Source: a virus. From it: 24,696 nt of DNA. The position numbers were made by a program, and so were the translations under genes. Position 1 is the stretch's first letter; every line of letters begins with the position of its first letter. This document shows positions 1 to 17,440 of this stretch, in pieces. A model generated the notes under the pieces. It searched no databases. It had not been told where the DNA came from and saw only the letters and a program-made list of their open reading frames with translations. Location of the stretch: positions 1 through 24,696 of IMG/VR virus record IMGVR_UViG_3300025880_000107; one strand, written 5' to 3'.

Positions 1-1024
1 TTCTTAATTCGACTTTGATGTGATCTTTATCAAGTTCAGTATCAACTGCTTCGACATAAGAATCGAGAAGTTCTGTAGTATCTTCTAGGGATATTTTCTC
101 GTCATCGACGCTTTCTCCCAAATACTCTTCAAATGATTCTGCAATCTTGAGTTCATATGTTTCAATAGATTGCAATTTATCCACAAACTTATCAAACATA
201 TACAAGTCATTCTTATTTATAACAATCAGCTTGATAAACTTTTTCTCGTATTCCGATACGTCTATAGTACTATAATCCGTCTTAGTATCATCATAAATGA
301 CTTTTTTAAACATAGTAATAGGGTTACGGACTGGAGTAATTTCTCTAGTCTCCGTATCTAATATATGAAAGTACTTAGGGTCATCAACATCTGCCCAGGT
401 AAATTCAAACTGTGATCCTAAATAAGACACATTGCCCTGACTGGATCTTGTGTGAAAATGTCCTGACAGTACGTGTTCAAATCTGGAGAATATATCTGCA
501 TTCATACCGTGTGGATTTGGAACACCCGCGAGTAGATCAAATCCTTTTAATTCTAAATGTGCTCCAAGAATAGGAGCATTACAACTGAGGGCCCACTTAG
601 TATATTCTTCATAGTTTGCATTATTAATCCAAGGAATAACTGCTACTCCGAGTCCATCATAATCTAAAACAGTTGGTTTCATTATAATATTTACATTACT
701 AGTAAAGTATCCAAGAAGTTCTTTAAGGGAACATAGTTCATTGGTGTTTTTATAAAACACATCATGATTACCAGGAATGATATCCATAGTGATGCCCATA
801 TCGCGCATAGGCTCAAGAAAATGCTTACGATTGGCATTGAGAGCCTTAAAGTTAACGAACTTTCTGTGTTCATAATAATCACCTAAGTGTAAGATGTTCT
901 TAATATTATGTTCTTTTAGGTATGGGAAAAAAATGTCTTGATAGAATTTTTCCTGATACTTTAGAAAAATATCTGATGAATTTCTTACACCACAATGCGT
1001 GTCGTTTAATATTGCTACTTTCAT
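1..1024 (-). CDS. 47: gp47-like recombination nuclease subunit (SbcD/Mre11 family), 3' end outside the window
   Basis: The reading frame opens at ATG 1024 and stays open for 341 codons to the window edge, so the C-terminus is missing. Its N-terminal half carries the calcineurin-type metallophosphoesterase motifs in order: DTH at residues 8-10, GD at 48-49, GNHD at 85-88, H156 and GHFH at 188-191. These are the metal ligands of Mre11/SbcD nucleases. In T4, gp47 pairs with the ATPase gp46 to resect DNA ends for recombination-dependent replication and to help degrade host DNA. In marine T4-like phages gene 46 usually follows, and it would lie just left of this window. The start directly follows the TAA of the upstream small gene with no gap, which suggests translational coupling. 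The internal frame at 691-882 is a shadow of this gene. The family call is firm; only the C-terminus is unseen. Confidence 0.95.
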   Translation of the reverse strand, partial: MKVAILNDTHCGVRNSSDIFLKYQEKFYQDIFFPYLKEHNIKNILHLGDYYEHRKFVNFKALNANRKHFLEPMRDMGITMDIIPGNHDVFYKNTNELCSLKELLGYFTSNVNIIMKPTVLDYDGLGVAVIPWINNANYEEYTKWALSCNAPILGAHLELKGFDLLAGVPNPHGMNADIFSRFEHVLSGHFHTRSSQGNVSYLGSQFEFTWADVDDPKYFHILDTETREITPVRNPITMFKKVIYDDTKTDYSTIDVSEYEKKFIKLIVINKNDLYMFDKFVDKLQSIETYELKIAESFEEYLGESVDDEKISLEDTTELLDSYVEAVDTELDKDHIKVELR

Positions 1025-1243
1025 TTAATTGTGCACCTCAATTCCTAAGTGTTCGCCTTCACTAAAATGATAGCCCATTGATATCATAAATTTTTCTAAT
1101 ATTTCAATCATATCATCTTTGCTCAAATCTTTTTCCATTACGTCAATGGTGATTCGTGTATTAGTTGAACTTTTATCTTCGTATGGATTACAAATTAATG
1201 AAATATACGGTTTCTCTTCGGCGGGTTTATGATTCCAAGTCAT
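1025..1243 (-). CDS. small hypothetical protein (about 72 aa)
   Basis: I do not recognise this small acidic protein. The longest frame starts at 1273, but that start overlaps the upstream gene by 47 bases. The internal ATG at 1243 is preceded by GGAG six bases upstream, so I prefer it; it begins MTWNHKPAEE. The product has a beta-like middle (YISLICNPYE, TRITIDVME) and a helix-prone end (DDMIEILEKFM). No signal peptide or membrane segment is visible. It is packed between another small gene, which it overlaps by 17 bases, and gene 47, whose ATG follows directly, so the three are probably co-transcribed with gene 55. No function can be assigned. Confidence 0.7.
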   Translation of the reverse strand: MTWNHKPAEEKPYISLICNPYEDKSSTNTRITIDVMEKDLSKDDMIEILEKFMISMGYHFSEGEHLGIEVHN

Positions 1244-1463
1244 TAAATACTCCATTGTTAATTGAACTTTCAAATGTATCCCAAAGCTTTTGAAATCGTA
1301 GCTCTGTAATATATTTTAGACCTAGCAATTGGTTTTGTAATGTATCACAATCTTCAGCATTTAACTTTAACTTATCTGTTGCGTGATAAATTAAATCAAT
1401 ATCTTCTGTAGTGTTCCAAGCTTGCATTATATCTGTTTCTAAATCAAATCTATTTTTTTCCAT
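1227..1463 (-). CDS. small conserved-looking hypothetical protein (78 aa)
   Basis: The 78-residue product starts MEKNRFDLETDIMQAWNTTE and looks largely helical, with no transmembrane segment. From memory, short proteins opening in the style RFxLExxIMxxW occur in marine T4-like phages near genes 55 and 47, but their function is unknown to me and I could not search. The start lies four bases after the gene 55 stop codon. There is no strong Shine-Dalgarno sequence, which fits coupling to gene 55 translation. The 3' end overlaps the next small gene. Confidence 0.75.
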   Translation of the reverse strand: MEKNRFDLETDIMQAWNTTEDIDLIYHATDKLKLNAEDCDTLQNQLLGLKYITELRFQKLWDTFESSINNGVFNDLES

Positions 1464-1467
1464 TTCA

Positions 1468-2046
1468 TTATACCATAAATAATTCTAGTTTTTCTTTCTC
1501 TCGGATCTTCTCTTCTTTGGCGAATTCTTTTAACTTTTCGTCTTTAGCTCTTACAGTCGATATTCTCTGTCGTAAAGTATCTACATACTGAAGTGTCTGT
1601 TCCGCACCTGCGTCATCCATACCCATGGCAACAAAGTCTTCAACACCCATCTTTTCAATATACTTGAACTTAATGTCTTGTTGTTTCTTTTCTTTAGTTA
1701 TTCGCCTAATAAAGGCGAAATAGCATATCTGGGTGAAGTAAGAGAATGCATTGGGTTTACCAGTTCTAGTGGCTGCTTCGATATTATAATTACCGATGGC
1801 TCGTAAACAATTCTCTACAGCATCCATAACCATTTCTTCTCGGTAAGTATATCTTACAAAGTTTGGCCGATGGGATAGTCCTTCAGCAATCTTAATAAAA
1901 CATGAAGCGATGTAATCGGTTACTACTGGCATATCACTATTAGATTCTTTTGCAGCTCTTGCCTCCATGGCATAATCAAATACTGCTTCACTAAAATCTC
2001 TATTGTTAACGTAGTGTGGTTTTTCTTTCGGCTTTAGTTTTGCCAT
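1468..2046 (-). CDS. 55: gp55-like sigma factor for late transcription
   Basis: This 192-residue protein has the size of T4 gp55 (185 aa) and its typical core. The helical segment HRPNFVRYTYREEMVMDAVE (about residues 79-98), followed by PNAFSYFTQICYFAFIRRI, corresponds to the sigma region 2 part that contacts polymerase and melts DNA. gp55 directs host RNA polymerase to TATAAATA late promoters, several of which occur in this window. The C-terminus ends in EKLELFMV, an acidic-hydrophobic tail of the kind T4 gp55 uses to touch the sliding clamp gp45; that equivalence is inferred. A strong GGAGG ribosome binding site lies about 8 bases before the ATG. A sigma-70-type promoter with an inverted repeat is directly upstream, so early or middle expression by host sigma is likely. 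Confidence 0.93.
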   Translation of the reverse strand: MAKLKPKEKPHYVNNRDFSEAVFDYAMEARAAKESNSDMPVVTDYIASCFIKIAEGLSHRPNFVRYTYREEMVMDAVENCLRAIGNYNIEAATRTGKPNAFSYFTQICYFAFIRRITKEKKQQDIKFKYIEKMGVEDFVAMGMDDAGAEQTLQYVDTLRQRISTVRAKDEKLKEFAKEEKIREKEKLELFMV

Positions 2047-2072
2047 GATTGGGTTTCCTCCATAATTAGTAT

Positions 2073-2101
2073 ATTATACTACACTTTTGGTTAAAAGTAA
2101 A
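2073..2101 (-). promoter_or_regulatory. sigma-70-type promoter of gene 55
   Basis: On the minus strand TTTACT (2101-2096) is followed after exactly 17 bases by TATAAT (2078-2073). The expected start is near 2066, giving a leader of roughly 20 bases that holds the GGAGG site of gene 55. This is a host-type promoter, distinct from the gp55-type TATAAATA elements elsewhere in the window. Confidence 0.75.
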
Positions 2102-2105
2102 GTGT
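2081..2105. repeat. inverted repeat overlapping the gene 55 promoter
   Basis: ACACTTT (2081-2087) and AAAGTGT (2099-2105) form a perfect 7-bp inverted repeat around an 11-bp centre. A smaller CTTTT/AAAAG repeat (2084-2097) lies inside it. The unit covers the -35 element and most of the spacer of the gene 55 promoter, where a repressor or activator site would be expected. It has no T-run in the minus direction, so it does not look like a terminator. An operator role is inferred only from position and symmetry. Confidence 0.4.
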
Positions 2106-2147
2106 TATTTAATATATTTTTCATTGCGATATTATTTGATAAAATGG

Positions 2148-2176
2148 TTGACAAAACCATGTGCGTATGATATAAT
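2148..2176 (+). promoter_or_regulatory. perfect-consensus sigma-70 promoter on the antisense strand
   Basis: TTGACA (2148-2153), 17 bases, then TATAAT (2171-2176), with TG at 2168-2169 as an extended -10. Both hexamers are perfect matches. It points rightwards while every gene here points left, so a transcript from about 2183 would run antisense into the 3' end of the 133-residue gene (2213-2614) and then uvsW. The 16 bases 2162-2177 (TGCGTATGATATAATA) also occur exactly in the minus-strand promoter of uvsY, which supports a real promoter. No convincing plus-strand gene follows it. Confidence 0.7.
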
Positions 2177-2212
2177 AATATAGTCATCCGGGGGGATAGA
2201 GGTATACTATTA

Positions 2213-2614
2213 TTAATGTACTGTCTCTTTACTGTCTGGTAAGATGTCATTGTATTCATCATCAATATCTTCAAGTTCTAGTTTATCTGCTATCTGGTTT
2301 GTTATTCGGTTAATAATAGATTCTGCAGATTCTGGTGGTGGTACTGGATCTCTTTTCATGAGAGCATACTTAATGTATTCTTTCTTTATCTCTTCCACTA
2401 CACTGGAATCACCTATAATATTATGCTTATCAATAGAATATCTTTTCTGTTCCGAGAATGGGAACCATGGGCTAAACTGATATCCCCCAATCATAGTACT
2501 GTATATAGCAACGGGTCTTTCTATCATATAATTATCTTGGTTATTATTACTTACCAGAGCAATTATATTATCACCATTAATCAGTTTAAAATTTCTTATG
2601 TTTAATTCTTTCAT
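2213..2614 (-). CDS. conserved-type hypothetical protein between uvsW and 55 (133 aa)
   Basis: I cannot assign a function. The N-terminal 40 residues read IRNFKLINGDNIIALV...YMIERPVAIY, a strand-rich pattern with a GD turn that resembles the small Sm-like barrels annotated in some marine phages. This is a fold-level impression only. A proline stretch (DPVPPPES, about residues 90-97) is followed by a helix-prone, strongly acidic C-terminus. It sits one base after the uvsW stop codon and is the last gene of the uvsY-uvsW operon. There is no Shine-Dalgarno sequence; a TATAAATA octamer (2621-2628) overlaps the end of uvsW six bases before the ATG. The plus-strand promoter at 2148-2176 points into its 3' end. 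Confidence 0.8.
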   Translation of the reverse strand: MKELNIRNFKLINGDNIIALVSNNNQDNYMIERPVAIYSTMIGGYQFSPWFPFSEQKRYSIDKHNIIGDSSVVEEIKKEYIKYALMKRDPVPPPESAESIINRITNQIADKLELEDIDDEYNDILPDSKETVH

Positions 2615-2615
2615 A

Positions 2616-4115
2616 TTAAATATTTATATCATATAATTTATAATCGAACTTCTCTTTTGAGTATATTTTAATGCGCTCTGCCGCATGAACCAATGTATAG
2701 TTCTTCTTACTTTTCCAATGCAGATCATCAGCAATATCATATACTTTAGTATTTATATCATCAGCGGACTTTCTGAGCCCACGGCCTATACTTTGTAGAA
2801 CCCTAATTTGACTCTTGCTTGGTGAAGCGAATATAATATTGTGAAGACGCTTAATATTAATGCCAGTAGAGAAAGTACCCATACTTGCCACAATAATAGC
2901 GTCACTTTCTTTTTCAGTGATAGCACGTATTTCTTCTCTCGTATCCACATCGGTTTCACCACTGACATAAAACAATCTCCTATCTATAATATCCATCTTC
3001 TTAAATTTTTCTTGTAACATATTATGCAAGGGTTTGCCGTGTTTATCCACATACTGAAACAGTATAAGAGTATTACCATCAGCATCCATAGCTAGATTTG
3101 AAATAAAGTTATTTCTTGGTTCATACTTTACAATAAAGTCCATCTCTGCTTGATAATCTCTCTTTACTTTACAGAACTCATCAGCATACTTTAAGAGTAG
3201 TATATTAATATCTAATTGAGCTAGATCGTTACTATCCATTAACTTCTTGGTAGTAGTTACTTTATGCACAGGACCGAATAAGCCTTCTAATACTAACTGA
3301 TGGGTTTGAGTACCATCTAAAGTGCCAGTAGTACCCATACGGAACTTACATTCTGTGCATTTTTCCAAGATCGCAGTTAGTGATTTAGCTTTAAATGAAT
3401 GCGCTTCATCACCAATCACCATTCCGAAAGGCTGAAACCAAGTCGCTCTTTCTTTATAAATGGACTGCCATGTAGTAATAACCACTCTATTCGGAATATT
3501 ATACTTCTCTCTGCCAGCATATATTTTATGGCAATTTTCATCCACATTCCATTCATCAAACTGCGAATAGTCTGCAAAGTCAGAGTACATCTGCTCTACC
3601 AATGAAGTTGTAGGTACTATTAATAAAATACTTTGATCGGATACCTCTAAAAAGAACCTTATAGCCATGTAAATGATAAGTGACTTACCTGATGCTGTAG
3701 GGGATAGTAGTAGAGATTGGCTGTTACTAAGTGCGTGTTCGAGCGCTTCTAATTGATAATTACGTGGGGTTATCTTATTACCACCCGCAGTTAAAGTTAA
3801 TTCTGATAATAAAGTAGGTATGTCTACTTTATTTTTAGCACCAGGCATGCCATAAGAACCATTATCAAGTTCTATATCATATTGTCTGGCATTGGCAAAC
3901 TCTTGTATATACTGAAACAAACCAGTATAAAGAGTCTTCTTTCTAAGGTCATATAGCCGAATCTTGCCGTCCCACATTCTATTTTTATACGCTGGCATAA
4001 ATTTATAACCAGGCACAAAGAAACAGAAATGTTCAGCTAGTTCATGTTCTATAGAAGGTTCTGTGATAATTTCCAAGAAAGCTTCATTCTTCTTTTTAAT
4101 TTTTATTAAGTCCAT
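2616..4115 (-). CDS. uvsW: UvsW-like recombination DNA/RNA helicase
   Basis: At 499 residues it matches T4 UvsW (503 aa). It is a superfamily 2 helicase: Q-motif-like NYQLEA near 119-124, Walker A SPTASGKS at 138-145, DEAH at 236-239, a TGT-type motif III near residue 260, and motif VI QSIGRGLRKS near 445-454. The N-terminal 115 residues contain the MWDGKIRLYD segment typical of UvsW's small DNA-binding domain. In T4, UvsW unwinds R-loops and branched recombination intermediates and helps switch from origin-dependent to recombination-dependent replication. It follows uvsY after 15 bases and has no clear ribosome binding site of its own. The neighbouring uvsY and nearby gene 47 complete a recombination cluster. 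Confidence 0.96.
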   Translation of the reverse strand: MDLIKIKKKNEAFLEIITEPSIEHELAEHFCFFVPGYKFMPAYKNRMWDGKIRLYDLRKKTLYTGLFQYIQEFANARQYDIELDNGSYGMPGAKNKVDIPTLLSELTLTAGGNKITPRNYQLEALEHALSNSQSLLLSPTASGKSLIIYMAIRFFLEVSDQSILLIVPTTSLVEQMYSDFADYSQFDEWNVDENCHKIYAGREKYNIPNRVVITTWQSIYKERATWFQPFGMVIGDEAHSFKAKSLTAILEKCTECKFRMGTTGTLDGTQTHQLVLEGLFGPVHKVTTTKKLMDSNDLAQLDINILLLKYADEFCKVKRDYQAEMDFIVKYEPRNNFISNLAMDADGNTLILFQYVDKHGKPLHNMLQEKFKKMDIIDRRLFYVSGETDVDTREEIRAITEKESDAIIVASMGTFSTGINIKRLHNIIFASPSKSQIRVLQSIGRGLRKSADDINTKVYDIADDLHWKSKKNYTLVHAAERIKIYSKEKFDYKLYDINI

Positions 4116-4130
4116 TAGATATGTATATCT

Positions 4131-4577
4131 TTAAATACCAGAGGTAAATTTGCGCCATTCAATCATATTTTTAATGTTCTGATGTCTCCACTTAATATTC
4201 TCCATTATTTCTTTAAGAGTATCACACATTTCTTTAGTGTATTCCATCTTAGCTTGATGTTGTTGAATAATGGGATCAGCATCATACCACTTATCCATAT
4301 CACCTTTAAGTACTGTTAATCCATTAAGAGGATCATAGTCCCAACCTTTGGAATCCATTTCCTCTTTGGATAGTTTACCATTATAGTGCATAAACTTGTC
4401 TCTAAGTATTACTTTAAAGTCTAGTTCTAGTTTCTTCAGTTTCATCTTATTGACACTGTAAAGTTCTAGGTATTTGGAGTGTAGTTTGGCGGAATCGCGG
4501 GAAGACTCGTCAAGTCTCATTTCGTCTATGAGTGAATCTTTCTTCCACATTTCTAAAATTTTTTCTAAGTTATTCAT
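4131..4577 (-). CDS. uvsY: UvsY-like recombination mediator
   Basis: The 148-residue product is close to T4 UvsY (137 aa) in size, high helical content and charge, with the recognisable segments HSKYLELYSVNKMKLKKLE (about 34-52) and ENIKWRHQNIKNMIEWRKF near the C-terminus. UvsY loads the UvsX recombinase onto single-stranded DNA covered by gp32. It is the first gene of a uvsY-uvsW-unknown operon and has its own sigma-70-type promoter just upstream. The leader has no clear Shine-Dalgarno sequence. uvsX and gene 32 are not in the window. Confidence 0.92.
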   Translation of the reverse strand: MNNLEKILEMWKKDSLIDEMRLDESSRDSAKLHSKYLELYSVNKMKLKKLELDFKVILRDKFMHYNGKLSKEEMDSKGWDYDPLNGLTVLKGDMDKWYDADPIIQQHQAKMEYTKEMCDTLKEIMENIKWRHQNIKNMIEWRKFTSGI

Positions 4578-4616
4578 AATATATCCATGGTTTAAAATAG
4601 TGCTGTTTTAAGTACT

Positions 4617-4645
4617 ATTATATCATACGCAGACGGAAAAGTAAA
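4617..4645 (-). promoter_or_regulatory. sigma-70-type promoter of the uvsY operon
   Basis: TTTACT (4645-4640), a 17-base spacer and TATAAT (4622-4617) on the minus strand, with TG of an extended -10 at the right place. It lies immediately after the end of the gp19-paralogue gene. The -10 region TGCGTATGATATAATA (4631-4616) is identical to that of the plus-strand promoter at 2162-2177, and the TTTACT hexamer is identical to that of the gene 55 promoter. Expected start near 4610, with a leader of about 33 bases. Confidence 0.8.
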
Positions 4646-4649
4646 CCCC

Positions 4650-5117
4650 TTATATTATTTCGTAATAGGTATACTTAAATGATGCGTCTGCTTGCAAGTA
4701 TTCAACATCGGTTTGTTGTGTTGAAAATTCTAATGCAGATAGTGTTGTTGGAAAACAATCTCGGAAAACGATTTCTTTACTTACATTGTTATGTGACGTC
4801 AGAATAGATAAGGTTGCATCAAATTTATATGATTCACCTTTAGAGTCATTAATGATATTATGCATCCAATTAAACATTTCTATATAGTTATCCATGTCCT
4901 CAGTTACATTAAATCTTATAGCTAGTTCATCAAAATTCAACCGATCACCAGTCATGGCAATATTAACACCTCTATATGGTACGTTTGATTCTGATAACGA
5001 AACACCAGGCAGTGTTACAGCTGTACAAAAATATTCAATGTTAGGAAACTGTTTAGCATCAACTCTAAACTGAAACCCAACTGGACTTAAAAAATTCTTA
5101 TTTGTTGTTAGTGTCAT
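4650..5117 (-). CDS. tail-tube-fold protein, paralogue of gp19
   Basis: The 155-residue product aligns along its whole length with the gp19 of this window (10235-10762). Its VPYRGVNIAMTGDR corresponds to VPFRGRQLQIAGDR, FNWMHNIIND to FERWMNGINNH, and FPTTLSALEFS to FPTNLSAIELS. It therefore belongs to the T4 gp19 tube family. It is too short to be T4 gp48 or gp54, the larger tube-fold proteins that initiate the tube. A role at the baseplate-tube or tube-neck joint is inferred, and it may be what some annotations of related phages place after gene 23. It starts inside a 30-codon ORF, has a GAGGAAG ribosome binding site, and is isolated from gene 23 by a terminator and a late-type promoter. uvsY follows with its own promoter. 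Confidence 0.85.
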   Translation of the reverse strand: MTLTTNKNFLSPVGFQFRVDAKQFPNIEYFCTAVTLPGVSLSESNVPYRGVNIAMTGDRLNFDELAIRFNVTEDMDNYIEMFNWMHNIINDSKGESYKFDATLSILTSHNNVSKEIVFRDCFPTTLSALEFSTQQTDVEYLQADASFKYTYYEII

Positions 5118-5190
5118 TTTCTTCCTCTTCTGGTTCCTCTTCTAAAAGTCCCCACCAATTCCAGCGACCATCTTCTATAGATTCTTCCAT
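5098..5190 (-). CDS. possible 30-residue acidic protein overlapping the gp19 paralogue
   Basis: ATG 5190 opens a 30-codon frame ending at TAA 5098, which overlaps the next gene by 20 bases in another frame. The peptide starts MEESIEDGRWNWWGLL and ends in a glutamate-rich tail. Its composition (three tryptophans, then acidic) is not typical of noise. There is no Shine-Dalgarno sequence, but a TATAAATA octamer ends exactly five bases before the ATG. It could be a real small protein, a leader that couples translation to the gp19 paralogue, or chance. Confidence 0.45.
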   Translation of the reverse strand: MEESIEDGRWNWWGLLEEEPEEEENDTNNK

Positions 5191-5195
5191 AGTAT

Positions 5196-5203
5196 TATTT
5201 ATA
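5196..5203 (-). promoter_or_regulatory. T4-type late promoter element before the gp19 paralogue
   Basis: TATAAATA, a perfect match to the T4 late promoter octamer, lies on the minus strand between the gene 23 terminator and the 30-codon ORF. Because the terminator separates this gene from the capsid operon, an independent late promoter is expected here. By T4 spacing the transcript would start at or next to the A of the ATG at 5190. Confidence 0.7.
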
Positions 5204-5223
5204 ATGGCTAATATTCTAAACAT

Positions 5224-5251
5224 AAAAAAAGGGACTCCGAAGAGTCCCTTT
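5224..5251 (-). terminator. intrinsic terminator downstream of gene 23
   Basis: On the minus strand AAAGGGACTC, a TTCG loop, GAGTCCCTTT and a run of seven T form a textbook Rho-independent terminator with a 10-bp stem and an extra-stable UUCG tetraloop. It lies about 30 bases after the major capsid stop codon and probably caps the abundant capsid mRNA and protects its 3' end. Confidence 0.93.
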
Positions 5252-5282
5252 AAAGAATCAAATTGACTCAATGATTTTGCAA

Positions 5283-6617
5283 TTAAGCAGAAACCATCAT
5301 GCTGTCAACTCTGAAGATTCTGAAGTATGGGTTAGAACGGTTACTACCCGCACCTGCCGCAGTACCCACGAATGGGTTCTGTTGAATACCATATCTTGTT
5401 TTGAATCCGATTCTTGGCTGGAAGTCATTCTCACCAACGGCTTTAACCATAGTTAAAGGAACGTAAGGACAATAGAACAGACCAGCATCATATGGATTAG
5501 TACCTCTGTAACCAACACATACGAAGTCAGAAGTAGCATATGGATCAATATATACTTTTAGTCTTCCGTTAAGAACACCAGCAAAAGTATTACCTGTATC
5601 ATCTACTTGTAAACCAGTAGATAGAGCAGGTGAATAGTCCATAGTACCAGAAGCTGCAAGAGCAGAAGCTACATCAGAAGATACTATTACAAAGTTACCT
5701 TTGCCTCTTCTTGTGTCAAGAGCGATCTTGTTAGATTCTCTTTCGATCTGCATGATAAGACCCTTGAACTTCTCAGCCATCCATCTGCCGTCTGAATCAG
5801 TATCTACGTTAAAGATACCTTTGATAGCAAGGTTTGACTGTTGAGCACCAAGATTAGCCTTAGTATATACAGTTCTAATCATCTCTCTGTTGATTTCCGC
5901 TAGGATTTCAGAAGAAAGAATATTAGCCAGTTCAGCTTCAGCGTCTAGTCCGTGTACAGCTTTAAGGTCTTGAGCGAGTTCCATTGTGTACTCAGCTTTC
6001 AGAGCTCTTGACTTAGCAGTAACAGTTGCTTTTTCGATTGAGAAAGCCATCTCACCGAAAGAACCGTCACCATCTCCGCCAACACCCAATCTTTCAGCAG
6101 CATCTGTATCCATTGCTGAACCGAAAGTATTAACGATATCTGCTTCATCACCGATGTCACCATCAGTATCAGCATCTGTTACACCTTCAAGACCAGTAGG
6201 ACCTGCTTGTTGAGTACCAGTACCAGAGAATCCAGAGTCAGCTTCGTTATGAAGTGCTTCTGTACCACCTTGAGTACTGTATCTTGATTTCATTGCAAAG
6301 ATAAGTCCAGTAGGACCAGTCATTGGTTGAACACCAGCGATATCATAAGCGATGAGGTTAGGCATTGCACGTCTTACCAAAGAGATAAGAACTGGATCAA
6401 AAGTAGCGATATCGCTACCTGCCTGGTTATTAGCTGCAGCTGCTTCAGAAATGAAGTTGCCACCCATATTTTGAGCATCTTCTCTGAGTGCTTGCTCTTG
6501 GTTCTCCAACAATCTAGCTGTAGTAGCTTTCTTGTGCTTATCAGCAATACTAGGTACGTCTGCGTGTTCTAGTACTGGAGCCCACTTTTCAATTAAATTT
6601 GAATCTGCGTTAAACAT
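5283..6617 (-). CDS. 23: gp23-like major capsid protein
   Basis: This 444-residue protein is the T4-type major head subunit (521 aa in T4; marine forms are shorter because the insertion domain is reduced). Recognisable segments include FDPVLISLVRRAMPNLIAYD (about 74-93), the GPTGLIFAMKSRY block, the EYTMELAQDLKAVHGLDAE segment and a C-terminus rich in conserved aromatic motifs. The sequence FISEAAAANN offers a gp21 cleavage site (I-x-E) after Glu58, which would remove an N-terminal 58-residue arm on maturation; this is inferred from the T4 rule. An AGGGG ribosome binding site precedes the ATG. No separate vertex gene (24) follows, as is usual in marine T4-like phages. A strong terminator lies downstream. 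Confidence 0.97.
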   Translation of the reverse strand: MFNADSNLIEKWAPVLEHADVPSIADKHKKATTARLLENQEQALREDAQNMGGNFISEAAAANNQAGSDIATFDPVLISLVRRAMPNLIAYDIAGVQPMTGPTGLIFAMKSRYSTQGGTEALHNEADSGFSGTGTQQAGPTGLEGVTDADTDGDIGDEADIVNTFGSAMDTDAAERLGVGGDGDGSFGEMAFSIEKATVTAKSRALKAEYTMELAQDLKAVHGLDAEAELANILSSEILAEINREMIRTVYTKANLGAQQSNLAIKGIFNVDTDSDGRWMAEKFKGLIMQIERESNKIALDTRRGKGNFVIVSSDVASALAASGTMDYSPALSTGLQVDDTGNTFAGVLNGRLKVYIDPYATSDFVCVGYRGTNPYDAGLFYCPYVPLTMVKAVGENDFQPRIGFKTRYGIQQNPFVGTAAGAGSNRSNPYFRIFRVDSMMVSA

Positions 6618-6638
6618 TTTTTTGTTTCCCCTTTTAGA

Positions 6639-7787
6639 TTACTTGTTAAATTTTGAGATTGCTTGTGTGTATCTTGACATAGTGTCACTGATATCAGCCG
6701 GGGCTTCGTCAGTTCCTGCTACGCTTGATAGCTCATCAGTTGATTCACTAAGTTCTTTAGTAAAGTATGATTCTTTAACAACTCTAACTTTCATTTCAAA
6801 GTTATCTTTGTTATCAAATTCAATATCTTCGACCAAAGTACTTAATTTCTCAGCTTCTGTGTCGGCAAGCCCTGAAGATTGTTCTCTTACTACTTCAGCT
6901 CTTTCCAAAGTTTGAACTGATTCATGTAGTCTGATATTATCTTCTGTGGTTTTGTTTAATGATTCTTCAAGTTCAGCGACTGATGCAGAAAGTTCTTCTA
7001 CAACGTCAACCTTACCTTCAGGCACATCGATATAATGTTCTTTGAACACTGATTGTAAAGAAGTCATAAAGTCTTCAGCAATTTCAGTCCTAAGACCTTC
7101 TGTTACTGCAACTTCATTCGTATCCATCCAGTTAGAAACAACATAGTTTAAGTAGGAATCAACCTTCTCAACTAATTCGCTTTTAACATCAGATACTTCT
7201 TCTTCAAGATTTTGCGCGTACTCAGTTTCAAGCCTTTCAACTTCATGAGCCAACTTACTAGTAAGTACAGCCTCAAAAATTGTAGCAGCTTTGCCACGGA
7301 ATCCATCAGATAAAGTAGCTTCTTCAGCGATTACTGCATCTAAATCTTCCTCAAAGTCAACGGACTCAACTTTAGCTTTCGCCTTAAGTTCGTTTTTCTT
7401 CTGTGGAGCTGATTTAATTGCACTATCAACGGATCCATCATCTTCGGATTCGTCAACTTTCGCCATTTTAGCGTAGATTTTCTGCGCATCTTCTTTTCTA
7501 GCTTTCTTTAACATATCAACTGCTGCTTGAATTACTCCAGCTTTAGTTTTAGGAATAGAAATTTCTTTGACTTCAGGCTCTTCGTCTTCTTCGTCATCCT
7601 CATGGGCTGACTCATCGACTTCTTCCTCGTCATCTTCGTCTTCTTCTTCCTTTACTTTAGCTTCATCAAGAACTTCTTCGTCTTCAACTTGTTGGTCTTC
7701 AACGAGCTCGTTCTCAAGCTCTTCAGCATCTTGTTGAATGTCTTCAGACACTAGTTCATTTTCTAGTTTATTTTCGTCTATTGACAT
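6639..7787 (-). CDS. 22: gp22-like prohead core scaffold protein
   Basis: Assignment rests on position (protease 21, then this gene, then capsid 23) and architecture. The first 75 residues are extremely acidic, with runs of Glu and Asp. Then comes a conserved-looking helical segment starting SIPKTKAGVIQAAVDMLKKA (about 77-96). The rest is predicted helical and coiled-coil, for example SVAELEESLNKTTEDNIRLH near 270. At 382 residues it is much longer than T4 gp22 (269 aa), and the excess is mainly the acidic N-terminal arm. The scaffold shapes the prohead and is then cut to small peptides by gp21; many L/I-x-E sites suitable for that are present. An AGGAG site precedes the start. Confidence 0.9.
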   Translation of the reverse strand: MSIDENKLENELVSEDIQQDAEELENELVEDQQVEDEEVLDEAKVKEEEDEDDEEEVDESAHEDDEEDEEPEVKEISIPKTKAGVIQAAVDMLKKARKEDAQKIYAKMAKVDESEDDGSVDSAIKSAPQKKNELKAKAKVESVDFEEDLDAVIAEEATLSDGFRGKAATIFEAVLTSKLAHEVERLETEYAQNLEEEVSDVKSELVEKVDSYLNYVVSNWMDTNEVAVTEGLRTEIAEDFMTSLQSVFKEHYIDVPEGKVDVVEELSASVAELEESLNKTTEDNIRLHESVQTLERAEVVREQSSGLADTEAEKLSTLVEDIEFDNKDNFEMKVRVVKESYFTKELSESTDELSSVAGTDEAPADISDTMSRYTQAISKFNK

Positions 7788-7802
7788 TTGTATTCTCCTA
7801 TT

Positions 7803-8459
7803 TTAAGAATTTACAAGTTTAGAGAGGAAATTCTTAAAAGCTTTAATCTCAATATTAGCAGCGCCAACACCTCGAGCCTCTTTTATTTCAGTCTCAATTT
7901 CTTCAATTTCTTGCGGACAAAGTACACCATTATTCCATACCCACTCAACACCTTCCATAATTCCATTGACAAATGCCTCTGGAGCAGAAGGGTCTTGCAC
8001 GATATCGACTGTTGAAAGCATAAAATCTTTACCAACATGCGATGCGCCTTGCTTATTCACAAGAGTTCCCATACCACGACTTGATACACCAAGCTTAACT
8101 CCACCTTCAAGTAGACCTTCAACGATCTTGCCCATAGGGGTATTAAGAATTGATGCTTTTCCTATAACATTACTTCCTTCAAACTTGAGTTCAGTAATCT
8201 TATGTGAAACTTTATCTAAGTTAATAGTAGGGCCTTCAGGGTGGTTTAATTCCCCAACAGCTCTACCTTGACTTACTTGTTCTTTTACGTATTTGTTAAC
8301 GGCACCTTCAAGTATTGATTTCTCATATACTCTACCGTTTCTATTCTTTTTATCGGCCTGCATAAACACGCCTTCGATAACATACGAATTGCTACCGTCT
8401 TTTTTCTTTTCAGTAATAACCTGAAGGTTACTGTCATGATACTCTGATATAAGTCTCAT
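7803..8459 (-). CDS. 21: gp21-like prohead core protease
   Basis: At 218 residues it matches T4 gp21 (212 aa). It has the usual herpesvirus-like prohead protease signature: NGRVYEKSIL (about 41-50), GELNHPEGPTINL with the putative catalytic His73, and LGVSSRGMG with the putative nucleophile Ser126 or Ser127. The enzyme assembles in the prohead core, is activated by self-cleavage, and then cuts scaffold and capsid proteins after L/I-x-E motifs. An AAGGAG ribosome binding site lies ahead of the ATG, which starts 14 bases after the stop of the 67-like gene. Confidence 0.95.
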   Translation of the reverse strand: MRLISEYHDSNLQVITEKKKDGSNSYVIEGVFMQADKKNRNGRVYEKSILEGAVNKYVKEQVSQGRAVGELNHPEGPTINLDKVSHKITELKFEGSNVIGKASILNTPMGKIVEGLLEGGVKLGVSSRGMGTLVNKQGASHVGKDFMLSTVDIVQDPSAPEAFVNGIMEGVEWVWNNGVLCPQEIEEIETEIKEARGVGAANIEIKAFKNFLSKLVNS

Positions 8460-8473
8460 TCTAGTTTTCTCCT

Positions 8474-8644
8474 TTATTCTTCTTCTGAAATTTCATCAGA
8501 AGACTTGCCTATCTGTGATGCAATTTCAATCTTTCTAGCATCCATAGCGGCTTGTAATTTTTGAGCAATAACACCATCAAATGCTTTACCAGCACCGACA
8601 TTATCACCTTTTCCAATATTATCAATCATTTGGTCTATAGTCAT
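8474..8644 (-). CDS. small prohead core protein, gp67-like (56 aa)
   Basis: ATG 8644 to TAA 8474 gives 56 residues starting MTIDQMIDNIGKGDN and ending in DEISEEE. It lies exactly where T4 and marine relatives carry gene 67 (and 68), between portal 20 and protease 21. It has the matching short-helix style (AFDGVIAQKLQAAMDARKIE) with an acidic tail. T4 gp67 (80 aa) is an essential internal prohead core component processed by gp21; the ISEEE tail here contains a possible I-x-E site. An AGGAG site nine bases upstream and a TATAAATA element before it support expression. Sequence similarity to T4 gp67 is too low to judge by eye. Confidence 0.8.
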   Translation of the reverse strand: MTIDQMIDNIGKGDNVGAGKAFDGVIAQKLQAAMDARKIEIASQIGKSSDEISEEE

Positions 8645-8664
8645 TATTTAGTTCTCCTAGTATA

Positions 8665-8672
8665 TATTTATA
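8665..8672 (-). promoter_or_regulatory. T4-type late promoter before the prohead core genes
   Basis: Perfect TATAAATA on the minus strand just after the portal gene stop. By T4 spacing the start would be near 8659, leaving a 15-base leader that contains the AGGAG site of the 67-like gene. It probably drives 67-21-22-23, since no octamer is visible in the short gap directly before gene 23. Confidence 0.75.
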
Positions 8673-8677
8673 ATATT

Positions 8678-10168
8678 TTATAAGTCAAAGTCGTCATCAT
8701 CGTCTTGAGCACCGGATTCTTTTTCTGCTTTGATCTGATCTTCCATTTCTTTCATGGAATCTTCATCCATTTTAAGAACATTCTTTGCAATCCACTCAAT
8801 AGAAACGTATTTACCTGCATATTCATCTACTGTACCCAACATCTCAAATCTTTCTCTCATCATTTCAGATTCTTTCAATTCAGAGAAGTAGTTATCTTCA
8901 ATAAAGTCATATGCAATGTATGTTTTCCAATTGTCCCAGTCTTGTTGAGTAATAATACCCTTTAGCACAAGTTGGGTTCTTAGTAACTGATTAAACATAT
9001 CAGTAAATCTTTTTCTTAATCTATCAATAAATTTCTTAAATTTAATCTCGTCCCTAGATATTTCAGTACTTCTACCCAAAGTAAACTGCTGTTCTTGTTC
9101 TAATCTACTAATAGGAACATTTAACGACTTGTATAATCTTTTCTGAAAGTATACAATATCATCAATCTGTCCTAGGTTTTCACCTCCGGGCAATGTTGAA
9201 ATTTCAGTACCTCTTCCACCTTCTCTACGCGGTAAGAAGAAATCTTCCATCATGCTCATATGTTTTCTATCGTCTTTTATATCACCAGTTTTAGCATCAT
9301 ATACCAACTTATTTCTATACTGGCTCATAATACCTTTTAAGTATTCTTCTGCCTTACCTTTCGGTAGGTTACCAACATCAATATAGAAGATTCTACGTTC
9401 TGGCGCTCTACTTATTCTGTAGATAACCAATGAATCTTCCATCATGCGTAGTTGGTTAACAGGCTTAATTGCTTTATGCAAGTAAGATAGTATTCTTTTT
9501 CTATCAGGTGATAACATTCCTGAAGTCGCATAACATATTGCGTCAGGGTGTATCTTTAATCCTTGGCCCGCACTACTCATCTTAGTGTCTTGAAACAAGA
9601 AATATTCTTCTTCTTTTTTAATAATTTTTGCCCCAGTCTTAGGGTCTTGTTCTTCTTCTACTTCTTTGACCTTTCTCAACTTAGTAGGATCAATATATCT
9701 TAATTCTTTAATACCATTCTTTGGTGATTTATTATCAATAATAATATGGTAAGGTAGTCTTCCATCAACATACCACTTTCTGAATATATCGTGTGCGTAT
9801 GAATTAAAATTAAGTAACTTTAATATAGTTTCAAATTCATTCTTAACTGATTCTTTAATCTTATCAGAAATTTCTAATTTATCAAGAATTAAATTTATTG
9901 GTGCTTCATCATTATCACCAACAATAGATTCGTTAATAATATCTTCAATAGCAGCATCACATTCTGGTTGAGAAGCAATATCTCTATACTTGTAAATTAA
10001 ATCGACTTCATTTTTAGCTTTATCACCATCTAAATCAAGGTACGCGCCAAAATGGCCACCAGTAGTAATAACACCAGTACCATCTTCATCCGTATTAGGA
10101 ACAAATGAAGGCCTTATAGGTTCTTCATTACCTTTCCTTTTTATTTCAAAACCAAAAAACTCTGCCAT
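8678..10168 (-). CDS. 20: gp20-like portal protein
   Basis: This 496-residue protein corresponds to T4 gp20 (524 aa), the dodecameric portal that nucleates the prohead, docks the terminase and later joins the neck. Diagnostic blocks are IYKYRDIASQPECDAAIEDI near residues 58-77, WYVDGRLPYHIIID, YIDPTKLRKV, the DSLVIYRISRAPERRIFYID segment around 242-261, and DDIVYFQKRLYKSLNVPISR near 335-355. The C-terminus is a run of aspartates (DDDDDFDL). It has a GAGGA ribosome binding site, and its own late promoter and leader hairpin lie upstream. Confidence 0.97.
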   Translation of the reverse strand: MAEFFGFEIKRKGNEEPIRPSFVPNTDEDGTGVITTGGHFGAYLDLDGDKAKNEVDLIYKYRDIASQPECDAAIEDIINESIVGDNDEAPINLILDKLEISDKIKESVKNEFETILKLLNFNSYAHDIFRKWYVDGRLPYHIIIDNKSPKNGIKELRYIDPTKLRKVKEVEEEQDPKTGAKIIKKEEEYFLFQDTKMSSAGQGLKIHPDAICYATSGMLSPDRKRILSYLHKAIKPVNQLRMMEDSLVIYRISRAPERRIFYIDVGNLPKGKAEEYLKGIMSQYRNKLVYDAKTGDIKDDRKHMSMMEDFFLPRREGGRGTEISTLPGGENLGQIDDIVYFQKRLYKSLNVPISRLEQEQQFTLGRSTEISRDEIKFKKFIDRLRKRFTDMFNQLLRTQLVLKGIITQQDWDNWKTYIAYDFIEDNYFSELKESEMMRERFEMLGTVDEYAGKYVSIEWIAKNVLKMDEDSMKEMEDQIKAEKESGAQDDDDDFDL

Positions 10169-10190
10169 ATGTTTATCCTCAAATAATATC

Positions 10191-10212
10191 AGGAGGGAAC
10201 TTAATCCCTCCT
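10191..10212 (-). promoter_or_regulatory. perfect hairpin in the gene 20 leader
   Basis: AGGAGGGA, loop TTAAGT, TCCCTCCT on the minus strand: a perfect 8-bp GC-rich stem. It lies 8 bases downstream of a late TATAAATA element, so a late transcript would begin almost at the hairpin. It could protect the 5' end, or attenuate readthrough from gene 19. It is followed by TGATATTATTTG rather than a clean T-run, so it is a weak terminator at best. Confidence 0.6.
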
Positions 10213-10219
10213 TCTACTA

Positions 10220-10227
10220 TATTTATA
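10220..10227 (-). promoter_or_regulatory. T4-type late promoter before gene 20
   Basis: Perfect TATAAATA on the minus strand, seven bases after the gene 19 stop codon. Expected start near 10214, just before the leader hairpin, with about 45 bases of leader to the portal ATG. Confidence 0.75.
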
Positions 10228-10234
10228 CATCAAA

Positions 10235-10762
10235 TTATGATGTAGTATCTGACTCCCAATACTGAACCTGTAGTTCAACTGTAAATTCTTCGATCTGATT
10301 TTCAGAATCATAAGAAAGTTCAATTGCACTTAGATTAGTAGGGAAAGTACCACGGATATCATACTTCTTAGTGACTTGTCCAGCTTTATTTAATTGTTCT
10401 ACAATCATGTCAGCTTGATAGTCAGTAGGATTAGATAGTCCAGTGTTTTCATTGTGGTTATTGATACCGTTCATCCATCTCTCAAAAGCACCACGAACTT
10501 GGAAATCAGCATCATTAATAATGGTTACTGACCATGGTTCGAAGGTTCTATCACCAGCGATTTGTAATTGTCTGCCACGGAAAGGTACCATGATAGGACT
10601 AATTACTGATGCTGGCATCTGAGCGCCTTTGCATAAGAAAGAAGTTAGTTCAACATCACCTTGTGCATAACTTGGAAAGTTACAAGTAACCTTGAACATG
10701 TTAGCACGTGCGCCACCGCCCACTAATTTAGATTTAAAATCATCTACGCCTAAAATTGCCAT
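10235..10762 (-). CDS. 19: gp19-like tail tube protein
   Basis: At 175 residues it matches T4 gp19 (163 aa), whose hexameric rings form the inner tail tube. Family motifs visible are the N-terminal VDDFKSKL, NMFKVTCNFP near 21-30, VPFRGRQLQIAGDR near 59-72, and FPTNLSAIELSYDSE with a terminal beta-strand FTVELQVQYWE. It directly follows the sheath gene, the standard order, and has an AAGGGAGA ribosome binding site. A paralogue lies after the capsid gene at 4650-5117. Confidence 0.96.
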   Translation of the reverse strand: MAILGVDDFKSKLVGGGARANMFKVTCNFPSYAQGDVELTSFLCKGAQMPASVISPIMVPFRGRQLQIAGDRTFEPWSVTIINDADFQVRGAFERWMNGINNHNENTGLSNPTDYQADMIVEQLNKAGQVTKKYDIRGTFPTNLSAIELSYDSENQIEEFTVELQVQYWESDTTS

Positions 10763-10775
10763 TTTCTATTCTCCC

Positions 10776-12476
10776 TTATACGCCGGAGATTTCAGAGAAA
10801 TCTACGCCGGTTCTTGTTGCCACAAAGTTAAGAGTAATGAAGTTAATCGACCTTGCAGGCTTGATAAAAATATCAGCTACGAATCTATTAGAATCAATCA
10901 CTTGACTTGTGTTATTAGTTTGATCACAAACAACTGCAAAGTCTGTTACCCCTCTTCGACCTTTAATGTCTCTGAGGAATGGTTCAACTAAATTTCTGAA
11001 CTGTGCACGAGTAAACTCGTCATTGAATTCAAAGAGTTGAGCCTCTGCCGCTGTTGAAATTGCTTTCTCCAAGGTGATGAATAATCTTCTGACATTAATT
11101 CTGTCAAAAGCAGAAGGTCTTGAAAGTAAAGTTTTATCTCCAAAAAGTACAGTACCTTGACCAGGTAATGAAACAATTGGATTAACTCTAGCTTTATAAA
11201 GACTATCTCTATCAGCCTTAGACGGGTTATATGCCAACTTAGTAACACCTAGTAGTTGACCACGATTAACACCAGCTGGTGAGAACCATGCGTCTGCTAC
11301 ATTATCAGTATTAGCACATAAACCTGCTTGATGTCCAGCTGCACCAATCCATCTATATACATCATTATACTTATCGTATACATACAGCGCTGTAGAATCA
11401 CATGCTGCATAAGATGTAGAAGTCAGGGTTGAGACCCAAGTAACAATAGCATCTCCTGGATTAGCTCCTCTTGAAACCGCAACCGGAGGTGATATAAATG
11501 CCATACAATCTTTTCTACTATTAGCAATAGTAATAAGACTGCCAGCAATATCTTTATCAGATGCAGTTGCTTCCGCCCCAGTATTACCACCAGGGAATGC
11601 AAACAATAAATTTACATCAACTGTTTCAGAATCTGCAAACAAGTTAAGACCTGTAGCGATTTCTGCCGCGGTTGGTGTATTATCATCTGTACCTGCAGTT
11701 AATGAGTTAGTAATAGCTGCTGTTACTGTAGTATATGTAGTAGTTGCTGTAACTGCATCACCAGCATCGGTTAAACCGGTGGGTGCTGCTAACCATCTGA
11801 CATATTCAGATTGTGTATTAATTACATCTTTATAGTAGTTAGTAGTTCCATCAGAACCTTTAGCATCAGAACCTTGAGATAGAAACTCGAAAGTCTCTAA
11901 TACAGTTCCTGCTTTACCAGACCATTTTCCGTCTTGGTCTATTACTACTATGTGAAGTTCATCTGCTGCCGCAGTTTTACCTAAATCAGTTGCATAATCG
12001 GAAGTACCTGGAACTGCAGAAAAACTTGACTTATAAGCCCAACCATTATATGCCGTAGCATTTGCTGGACAGACTGACACTTGCAAGCTGTTTCCTAGTT
12101 CCCCTGGATATTTTGCTACCCAAGCACCTTCACTTATGTTTCCTAAATCTAAGCCTTCATAATCAGTTTCATTTCCTACAAAAAGACCGCCGCCGCCAAC
12201 AGTTGCATTATCATGCGCTGTTTTAGCACGAACTACTTTAAGTGCGCCACCATACTTCAAAAATGATGCCGCTGTGAGGAAATGTTTAAAAGTATTGGAA
12301 TCGGGTGTTCCGAATGTTTCTGCTAGTTCTTTCTCCGAAGTTACAGTTACAATCTTAGCCACCGGCCCCCAATTAAATGACCCAGCCATCCCGCCAATAG
12401 AAGTTGATACCGCAGGTACTACACCTGATGCATCTATTTCATTGACCTGAACTCCTGGTGATACTTGAAATGCCAT
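10776..12476 (-). CDS. 18: gp18-like contractile tail sheath protein
   Basis: This 566-residue protein is the T4-type sheath subunit (659 aa in T4). The N-terminus SPGVQVNEIDASGVVPAVST is the typical extended arm. SFNWGPVAKIVTVTSEKELAETFG follows, and the C-terminal half has the conserved core: RLFITLEKAI near residues 461-470, FEFNDEFTRAQFRNLVEPFL, and the strand-exchanging end GVDFSEISGV. The variable middle (about 130-300) rich in Thr, Ala and Gly is the exposed insertion domain. The ribosome binding site is GAGAGGA. A late promoter sits about 64 bases upstream. Confidence 0.97.
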   Translation of the reverse strand: MAFQVSPGVQVNEIDASGVVPAVSTSIGGMAGSFNWGPVAKIVTVTSEKELAETFGTPDSNTFKHFLTAASFLKYGGALKVVRAKTAHDNATVGGGGLFVGNETDYEGLDLGNISEGAWVAKYPGELGNSLQVSVCPANATAYNGWAYKSSFSAVPGTSDYATDLGKTAAADELHIVVIDQDGKWSGKAGTVLETFEFLSQGSDAKGSDGTTNYYKDVINTQSEYVRWLAAPTGLTDAGDAVTATTTYTTVTAAITNSLTAGTDDNTPTAAEIATGLNLFADSETVDVNLLFAFPGGNTGAEATASDKDIAGSLITIANSRKDCMAFISPPVAVSRGANPGDAIVTWVSTLTSTSYAACDSTALYVYDKYNDVYRWIGAAGHQAGLCANTDNVADAWFSPAGVNRGQLLGVTKLAYNPSKADRDSLYKARVNPIVSLPGQGTVLFGDKTLLSRPSAFDRINVRRLFITLEKAISTAAEAQLFEFNDEFTRAQFRNLVEPFLRDIKGRRGVTDFAVVCDQTNNTSQVIDSNRFVADIFIKPARSINFITLNFVATRTGVDFSEISGV

Positions 12477-12539
12477 CGCTTTATCCTCTCATTGAGTTAG
12501 TTAATAAGTTTTTCATAATACGTTTATTTTCACTACTAT

Positions 12540-12547
12540 TATTTATA
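12540..12547 (-). promoter_or_regulatory. T4-type late promoter before gene 18
   Basis: Perfect TATAAATA on the minus strand in the 83-base gap between genes 17 and 18, with an expected start near 12534. The leader of about 58 bases contains an 11-codon frame (MKNLLTNSMRG) that stops four bases before the gene 18 ATG, and the GAGAGGA site inside its last codons. Confidence 0.75.
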
Positions 12548-12551
12548 AATA
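12544..12551 (+). promoter_or_regulatory. overlapping plus-strand late promoter octamer
   Basis: The gene 18 late element lies in the 14-bp palindrome TTATTTATAAATAA (12539-12552), so the plus strand also carries a perfect TATAAATA. If used, it would give a transcript from about 12557, antisense to the terminase gene 17. It may be no more than a by-product of the palindrome. Confidence 0.4.
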
Positions 12552-12559
12552 ACCACATC

Positions 12560-14173
12560 CTAACGAAGTAACCTATCGAACGCGTCGTTTTCAAACCAAA
12601 GGTTTTCGTCTCCTGCTAACTTTTCACCTGAAGGCGAATCTTCATCTTCTGGTATAAACCCAAATGGTAACATATCATCTTGTATTGCTTTTAATCGTTC
12701 TTTATATAACATATCTTTCATGTTAACATCAGCAAAACCTTCGAATATATCCGTAGTAACAAACCAAGCAAACATAACTAAATTCATCATTAAGTCGTCG
12801 TGGTTGGATCCTATAGCTTGATATGAATTACCCTTACTCACAAACGTACTCATTTCAACTATTGTATTAGCATCTTTTACTAATAACTTTCTCTGTTCTA
12901 TTAAATCTTTTATTGTAGAACAACCAATTCTTTTTACTCTTCTTGTCATTGTGGCGCCAAGAGCATTAGACTTAATAGATGATTCTACAAACATATTTTC
13001 ATATTCTAAATCATAGTATAACCCATTACAAACTACACCACCTTGGTCATTACTTTCTATTATAACATATGCTTTATTATAATAGTTCGCATATTTATAT
13101 ATAATGTCTGGTAATAACATCGGCGAAATATTATTATCTCTAAAAGTAGCTACCTGCTCAAATGGCCGTTTGCTTACATTGATAATATTAAATGTAGAAT
13201 AATCTTGCCCTCTGCCTTTGGCAACATCAACTGTCATAACATAATCGTGATTCTTCTCTGGTACATCATAGATCCAAATATTCTCTTTATATTCTAATGG
13301 GTCAACAGAGATTTGAGATAGTAAATGATTTGCATCAATAAGAGTATTACCACGGCCGTGGAATGTATTACCAAATTCCTGCTCGAACTGTAGTTCGGAT
13401 GTATTAGAAATTGTTTGTCTACGCCATTCCTCATCACGTCCTGGCACGTCCCACCAGTCAACACGAAAGGGTTTATACTCATTAGTTCCCTGCGAAGCAC
13501 CTTCCCATATCTTATGATATACGTTACCAATCCCATTAGCAGTAGAAGTAATAATAACCTTAGTATCTTTACCAGATGAAACAACTGGATATGTAGAAGT
13601 ATAAAATTGTGAATCATTCTCTACAAATGCAAACTCATCAAGAAATAGCAGGTTAATAGATAAACCACGAATAGATGAACCACTTGTAGCAGCTGCCATG
13701 ATTTTAGAGTTATTAGAAAATTCAATAGAGCCTTTATTTAATGCCTTACAACCTGGCTGTAAGAAGAACGGTAGATTTTCTAATGCAAGAGTTACCCTTG
13801 CCAACATTTCACGAGCAGTTGCACCCTTATTAGCTAAGATCGCTATATTCTTTTCTGGATGAAAACATGCGTACCAAAGTAAGTATACTACCGATGATAT
13901 ACTTTTACCAGACTGTCGACATGCTAATACAATACTAAATCTAGTATCATTAAAGTGTTTAAACATCTTTTCTTGGTATGGATATAAATCGAAAGGCACA
14001 AGACCTTCGTCAAGTGATATAACTTTAACATATGTTCTAGCAAAGTAAGCGGGATTATTCATGCATTTAGCATATTCTCGCACTTCGTCTTTATTGAATT
14101 GGGTTTCTACGCCGTCTCTTTTAACAGATGGATTGCCTAGATAGCCAAATTCGCTATTCTTTATCCTCTGCAT
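12560..14173 (-). CDS. 17: gp17-like terminase large subunit
   Basis: This 537-residue protein is the T4-type packaging motor (610 aa in T4). The ATPase domain shows a Walker A of the form CRQSGKS (85-91), Walker B LLFLDE (175-180) and the coupling motif TSTANG (209-214). The RNase H-like nuclease domain has its acidic residues at about D316 (TVDVAKGRG), E373 (IIESND) and D459/D460 (SNHDDL). It cuts concatemers and pumps DNA through the portal. The start overlaps the end of gene 16 by 20 bases in another frame, as is usual, and it has only a weak GAGAAG ribosome binding site, so translational coupling is likely. Confidence 0.98.
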   Translation of the reverse strand: MQRIKNSEFGYLGNPSVKRDGVETQFNKDEVREYAKCMNNPAYFARTYVKVISLDEGLVPFDLYPYQEKMFKHFNDTRFSIVLACRQSGKSISSVVYLLWYACFHPEKNIAILANKGATAREMLARVTLALENLPFFLQPGCKALNKGSIEFSNNSKIMAAATSGSSIRGLSINLLFLDEFAFVENDSQFYTSTYPVVSSGKDTKVIITSTANGIGNVYHKIWEGASQGTNEYKPFRVDWWDVPGRDEEWRRQTISNTSELQFEQEFGNTFHGRGNTLIDANHLLSQISVDPLEYKENIWIYDVPEKNHDYVMTVDVAKGRGQDYSTFNIINVSKRPFEQVATFRDNNISPMLLPDIIYKYANYYNKAYVIIESNDQGGVVCNGLYYDLEYENMFVESSIKSNALGATMTRRVKRIGCSTIKDLIEQRKLLVKDANTIVEMSTFVSKGNSYQAIGSNHDDLMMNLVMFAWFVTTDIFEGFADVNMKDMLYKERLKAIQDDMLPFGFIPEDEDSPSGEKLAGDENLWFENDAFDRLLR

Positions 14174-14585: not shown

Positions 14586-14590
14586 GACAG

Positions 14591-16308: not shown

Positions 16309-16311
16309 TAT

Positions 16312-17061: not shown

Positions 17062-17066
17062 ATTAC

Positions 17067-17074
17067 TATTTATA
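17067..17074 (-). promoter_or_regulatory. T4-type late promoter element before gene 13
   Basis: Perfect TATAAATA on the minus strand in the 21-base gap before gene 13. With T4 spacing, transcription would start at the A of the gene 13 ATG, giving a leaderless message. It would separate the neck and packaging operon from the fibre genes upstream. Confidence 0.6.
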
Positions 17075-17082
17075 CCTTTAAG

Positions 17083-17388: not shown

Positions 17389-17406
17389 TTTTTTCTCCTA
17401 TGTCCG

Positions 17407-17426
17407 TACCTAGAATCCACTAGGTA
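17407..17426 (-). repeat. hairpin between the second fibre gene and the 101-residue gene
   Basis: TACCTAG, loop TGGATT, CTAGGTA on the minus strand: a perfect 7-bp stem 14 bases after the fibre stop codon. No T-run follows, so it is not a standard terminator. It may mark the 3' end of fibre mRNA by processing or block 3' exonucleases. Confidence 0.45.
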
Positions 17427-17440
17427 TATTAGTTAAATTG

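Follow-up and report, generated by a model that had tools for sequence, protein, structure and literature searches.

A predicted antisense promoter conserved beside the late sigma factor gene of marine T4-like phages

Introduction

Phage genomes offer several described parallels to the element considered here, a predicted promoter that precedes no gene, lies in the gap upstream of the late sigma factor gene (gp55) and points against the surrounding genes. It was found on a 24,696-nucleotide (nt) stretch of viral DNA (IMG/VR record IMGVR_UViG_3300025880_000107, positions 1 to 24,696), which is referred to below as the window and represents part of the genome of a marine T4-like phage whose nearest named relative, judged by the promoter region, is Phage C48C1 of the Kyanoviridae. 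Overlapping or divergent pairs of regulatory promoters are well known in phages, as in the case of pR and pRM of lambda. The gp55 gap resembles them in that two promoters stand back to back or overlap next to a regulatory gene by which the expression programme is switched, but here one of the arms has no gene and the spacing varies between clades; moreover, unlike for the lambda pair, we know of no repressor that acts on the gp55-gap pair.

A second parallel is CfrI, an antisense RNA of about 225 nt encoded by cyanophage S-PM2 at psbA and a homing endonuclease gene, which has been described as the first antisense RNA in T4-like phages (PMC2984593, citing Millard 2010). Both cases concern antisense transcription in a marine T4-like phage; however, CfrI occupies another locus and is not family-wide as described, whereas the present promoter is kept in phages of different hosts, without conservation of the RNA body. 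The R-loop origins of T4, oriF (ori(uvsY)) and oriG (ori(34)), provide a third comparison, as they consist of MotA-dependent middle promoters together with a tested unwinding element (PMC3016281). The likeness lies in a promoter whose RNA may have a role without encoding a protein, in the uvsY/uvsW neighbourhood and in oriE, which has an early promoter. In contrast to oriF and oriG, the promoter described here is of early type, and GC skew (the strand asymmetry of guanine and cytosine) lends no support to an origin. Antisense and orphan phage promoters are already known as a kind, and the new part is the conservation across the family. No description of the antisense gp55-gap promoter was found in the openly searchable literature, and an earlier mapping in subscription papers is possible.

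A full-consensus promoter that opposes the genes

Two predicted promoters share the gap at 2047-2212 and diverge from each other:

2148-2176, plus strand: orphan antisense promoter of the sigma70 class (TTGACA at 2148-2153, TG at 2168-2169, TATAAT at 2171-2176; spacer of 17 nt)
2073-2101, minus strand: gp55 promoter (TTTACT at 2101-2096, N17, TATAAT at 2078-2073)

An earlier note on this DNA had called the plus-strand element a full consensus match, and this holds. Indeed, it is the sole occurrence of the exact TTGACA-N17-TATAAT motif in the whole window and the sole 12/12 site listed in a promoter scan of positions 1-20000. The expected count of exact 12/12 sites (spacer 17, both strands), estimated from 400 order-1 surrogates, was 0.01 per window, falling to 0.0025 when the TG was also required. 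The gp55 promoter on the minus strand had been missed in that first reading. An inverted repeat, ATGGTT-GACAA-AACCAT (2145-2161), overlaps the -35 box of the plus-strand promoter; read on the minus strand, the repeat and the TTTTATC that comes after it have a weak terminator-like shape, and the repeat is not evident among the window-clade relatives listed.

Conservation across the Kyanoviridae

The locus was followed in 317 marine T4-like (Kyanoviridae) contigs, comprising the clade of the window (80, gathered by a gp55 search), cyanophages (83), HTVC008M-like phages (81) and Melnitz-like phages (73), and a promoter was counted as conserved at a match of at least 10/12; the contigs are related to each other and the counts ignore kinship. 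By this measure an antisense promoter is present at gp55 in 96% of the window clade, 100% of the cyanophages, 82% of the HTVC008M-like and 80% of the Melnitz-like phages, as against 10%, 5%, 9% and 11%, respectively, in shuffled sequences. Other gaps between same-strand genes on the same contigs served as a control. Here the gp55 gap was positive in 97% of the window clade, 100% of the cyanophages and 74% of the Melnitz-like phages, compared with 4%, 0% and 10% of the control gaps. In the HTVC008M-like phages 10/23 control gaps were positive; 7 of these 10 lie directly before an open reading frame (ORF) of about 82 amino acids that precedes gp55, and they look like the same locus. In some HTVC008M-like contigs (e.g. 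L206, L209, L210) this ORF stands between the promoter gap and gp55, with the antisense promoter upstream of the ORF.

The sense gp55 promoter also reaches at least 10/12 in 88-98% of the relatives. In the window clade the antisense promoter occupies the same place in nearly all relatives, so that the -35 and -10 elements, whose loss in close relatives the earlier note had named as telling against its proposal, are kept. The match is 11-12/12 in C48C1, Pelagibacter phage HTVC008M and three cyanophages, and weaker in Methylophilales phage Melnitz-3. A perfect 12/12 is rare in the window clade (5%), most members having TTTACA or TGTACA as the -35 box and TG before TATAAT. The phages that carry the promoter infect Synechococcus/Prochlorococcus, Pelagibacter and Methylophilales. 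Collectively, sequence comparison establishes that the predicted antisense promoter is conserved across the marine T4-like family and several bacterial hosts, and that it faces into a gene on the opposite strand, as a cis-antisense promoter does.

Promoter class

The hexamers are set 17 nt apart, and each clade has a variant that is common to the other early and middle promoters of the same phage. In C48C1 early and middle genes are preceded by perfect sigma70 promoters, while in large window-clade contigs the forward promoters read TGTACA-N17-TATAAT and the antisense promoter is of the same variant. Within the window clade, an antisense TTTACA is paired with a sense TTTACA/T and an antisense TGTACA with a sense TGTACA; such sharing would be expected if the same polymerase reads both promoters, although shared descent also contributes. 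In four complete cyanophage genomes, 14-17 forward-strand sites per genome reach at least 11/12, as against reverse-strand counts of 3 in P-RSM4 and 1 each in Syn1, ACG-2014b and S-SM1. The antisense promoter is included each time and is thus the only reverse-strand site of this strength in 3/4 genomes. As far as its sequence allows it to be judged, the antisense element counts as a true early-class promoter, predicted to be read by host RNA polymerase with sigma70.

Two further reverse-strand sites were seen in relatives. C48C1 (OQ984149.1, in L087) has a second intergenic antisense promoter (11/12) at about 12430-12459, where it is flanked by the tail tube and portal genes. A further perfect TGTACA-N17-TATAAT occurs on the reverse strand of the window-clade relative G004:C1 (in L351), at about 35247.

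The start region and the transcript body

Conservation extends over the promoter and about 25 nt past it. In the window this region includes the following:

2177-2208, plus strand: conserved initial region, AATATAGTCATCCGGGGGGATAGAGGTATACT, from comparison with relatives
2183, plus strand: predicted transcription start, a G, the 7th base after the -10 box, placed from the sequence
2186-2189/2194-2197, plus strand: small stem ATCC-GGGG-GGAT, with arms that covary in relatives
2198-2202, plus strand: purine-rich AGAGG directly after the stem

A GT at about positions 7-8 past the -10 box is common to all four clades. In the window clade the start region resembles CCGGGGAGG and contains a small stem, the two arms of which covary among relatives (TGGC/GCCA, TGTC/GACA, AACC/GGTT, TACC/GGTA). 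A strict DNA pattern of this region had no match in viral contigs, being too strict for a variable element. Cyanophages have AACACTGTAAGGGTTCA directly after the -10 box and carry 1 or 2 further copies of it per genome in the forward direction, most of which stand right after a strong promoter with a gene close behind (CpeT, small hypothetical genes). In particular, the cyanophage-type unit of promoter and start was found in 80 viral contigs, 64 times antisense at gp55, 11 times before a sense ORF and 5 times unassigned. Melnitz-3 likewise has a second, sense copy of promoter and start region, whereas a second copy of the start region was found neither in C48C1 and HTVC008M nor in the window and the window-clade contigs, which are incomplete. 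The recurrence of the unit before sense genes in cyanophages and Melnitz-3 argues for a real promoter class. The sense copies (ACG-2014b 12641 and 46771, Syn1 16507, Melnitz-3 73685) precede small genes, including CpeT and a 67-amino-acid gene family, and may define a group of early genes under common control.

Beyond the start region little is kept. ORFs with their start in the first 80 nt have short median lengths of 11-32 amino acids, and the 3' end of the 133-amino-acid gene that the transcript would cross has no synonymous-site constraint (codon identity of 0.34 vs a gene mean of 0.49); a conserved RNA body was rejected on this ground. The claim of the earlier note that no gene, transfer RNA (tRNA) or obvious terminator follows on the plus strand is borne out, as the frame there has 8 codons, no tRNA and no covariance-model match to an Rfam family was found, and the scan placed the first terminator-like plus-strand site downstream of the promoter at 7471, with no intrinsic terminator before it. 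Such sites are only slightly commoner than in shuffles. With promoter and about 25 nt conserved, and with no conserved ORF, terminator or RNA body, it is probably the act of transcription that is selected.

Gene neighbourhood

The supported genes near the promoter are all on the minus strand, in agreement with the orientation first described:

1468-2046, minus strand: late sigma factor, gp55 homologue, 192 amino acids (PHROG 234, E 8e-50)
2213-2614, minus strand: gene of 133 amino acids (PHROG 527/471 match)
2616-4115, minus strand: uvsW helicase, antisense to the predicted plus-strand transcript (PHROG 16, E 1e-101)
2621-2628, minus strand: late-promoter-like TATAAATA just upstream of the 133-amino-acid gene, a consensus match only
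4131-4577, minus strand: uvsY recombination mediator (PHROG 231, E 2e-35)

The 133-amino-acid gene, whose 3' end the predicted transcript would meet first, sits where cyanophages have a gene labelled T4-GC 139. The promoter gap is the border between a late module (uvsY, uvsW and the 133-amino-acid gene) and an early/middle module. Late-promoter-like TATAAATA sites number 11 in the window vs 3.75 expected, with 9/11 on the minus strand, and the operon facing the plus-strand promoter looks late-type. The proposal that the promoter may limit middle transcription found no support here; as the facing operon looks late, any target would more likely be late than middle transcription. Other TATAAATA minus-strand starts lie at 5196, 8665, 10220, 12540 and 17067, several of them just upstream of minus-strand ORFs.

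What the promoter may do

The explanation that we favour, with somewhat better than even confidence, is that the promoter drives early, untranslated transcription antisense to the late operon, and that this transcription is coupled to the gp55 promoter. Early in infection, an untranslated transcript would start at about 2183 and run antisense into the 133-amino-acid gene and uvsW, where its polymerases would meet those leaving the late operon. Expression of the 133-amino-acid gene, uvsW and uvsY would be held low up to the shut-off of the early promoters. Termination by Rho, or simple fading of the transcript, would take the place of an intrinsic terminator, and the antisense promoter, as half of a divergent pair, would also affect the timing of gp55. 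Conservation, orientation, class and the lack of a gene in front can be read directly from the sequences. Of the regulatory antisense transcript put forward in the earlier note, the conserved feature is thus well supported by the promoter kept in relatives, while an effect on the genes is what we infer. Several points weigh against this explanation: activity, timing and the effects on uvsW, the 133-amino-acid gene and gp55 are all deduced, with the early class and the timing drawn from the kind of promoter and the order of the genes; the conservation counts come from related contigs and not from independent events; and gp55 timing or origin priming fits much of the same evidence.

The first of these, a timing switch in which the RNA is irrelevant and the antisense promoter competes with the gp55 promoter by steric exclusion or supercoiling until the shut-off of early promoters frees the latter, is unlikely. 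The promoters are paired in nearly every relative, the start region of the antisense promoter is common to other promoters, as expected of a common operator, and in cyanophages they overlap by a median of 16 base pairs (bp), so that polymerases would exclude each other. In the other three clades, however, the -35 boxes lie a median of 35, 37 and 25 bp apart, and direct overlap is thus not general; a small ORF, moreover, seems to separate the pair from gp55 in some HTVC008M-like contigs. Polymerase competition at the divergent pair is therefore plausible, but not general across the clades. Somewhat less probable again, though still a contender, is an R-loop origin of the T4 type, in which the orphan transcript would stay hybridised and prime the leading strand and would later be unwound by the uvsW product. 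A promoter with no coding need fits this, as does the G-rich start of the window clade (GC content of 0.62) followed by an AT-rich stretch (0.22), but the stretch from +20 to +40, with 22-33% GC in all clades, is also simply the end of a gene. RNA past the first 20 nt is pyrimidine-rich, and pyrimidine-rich RNA is less favourable to stable RNA-DNA hybrids. Sense copies of the unit stand before genes, which also speaks against an origin, and the GC-skew contrast at the site is unremarkable (29th-57th percentile in five complete genomes), although skew is not a strict criterion, since T4-like phages with several origins may have none. On the other side, T4 oriE uses an early promoter (PMC3016281) and one theta origin has been predicted for Syn9 (PMC2984593). 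Taken together, one of these two roles for the backward promoter, that of an R-loop origin used throughout the marine T4-like family or that of a transcription switch setting the timing of the late sigma factor, is a tentative possibility, which we hold rather doubtful.

The remaining explanations are improbable to different degrees. The start region could be a short 5' RNA element or an operator to which a factor of phage or host binds (for repression or antitermination, or as a trans-acting small RNA), as the covarying inverted repeat after the -10 box and the near-exact copies of the unit inside cyanophage genomes would suggest. The repeat, however, is downstream of +1 in the window clade and spans the predicted start in HTVC008M-like phages, where one arm precedes the start and hence lies outside the RNA; the window-clade stem is weak, with an energy no better than in shuffles, and G-T vs A-C extensions (23 vs 25) leave the strand undecided in that clade. 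We consider this explanation quite improbable, and the next two very improbable. A chance or decaying promoter without function has in its favour that one match to the consensus is no proof in AT-rich DNA, and that the overall number of promoter-like sites in positions 1-20000 is at chance level (80 vs 77 in shuffles); it was rejected for this locus on the conservation in four clades, against both shuffles and control gaps. An overlooked small plus-strand gene might be suspected, since downstream of the purine-rich AGAGG there is often an ATG or GTG, and sense copies elsewhere do precede genes. The start codon is there, however, because the His-stop end of the 133-amino-acid gene forces it, and such a gene was rejected on the 8-codon frame of the window and on the short ORFs of the relatives, which are unlike each other.

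Significance

How the early-middle-late programme runs without the MotA and Asi of T4, and how replication starts, is unsettled in marine T4-like phages (PMC2984593). Kept beside the late sigma gene, the promoter provides a precise and testable handle on both programme control and replication start. Its conservation points to a family-wide transcript that may be regulatory, or may start replication, and if the origin or the late-sigma switch were true, a very abundant family of marine phages would share a general feature that annotation passes over because no gene follows it.
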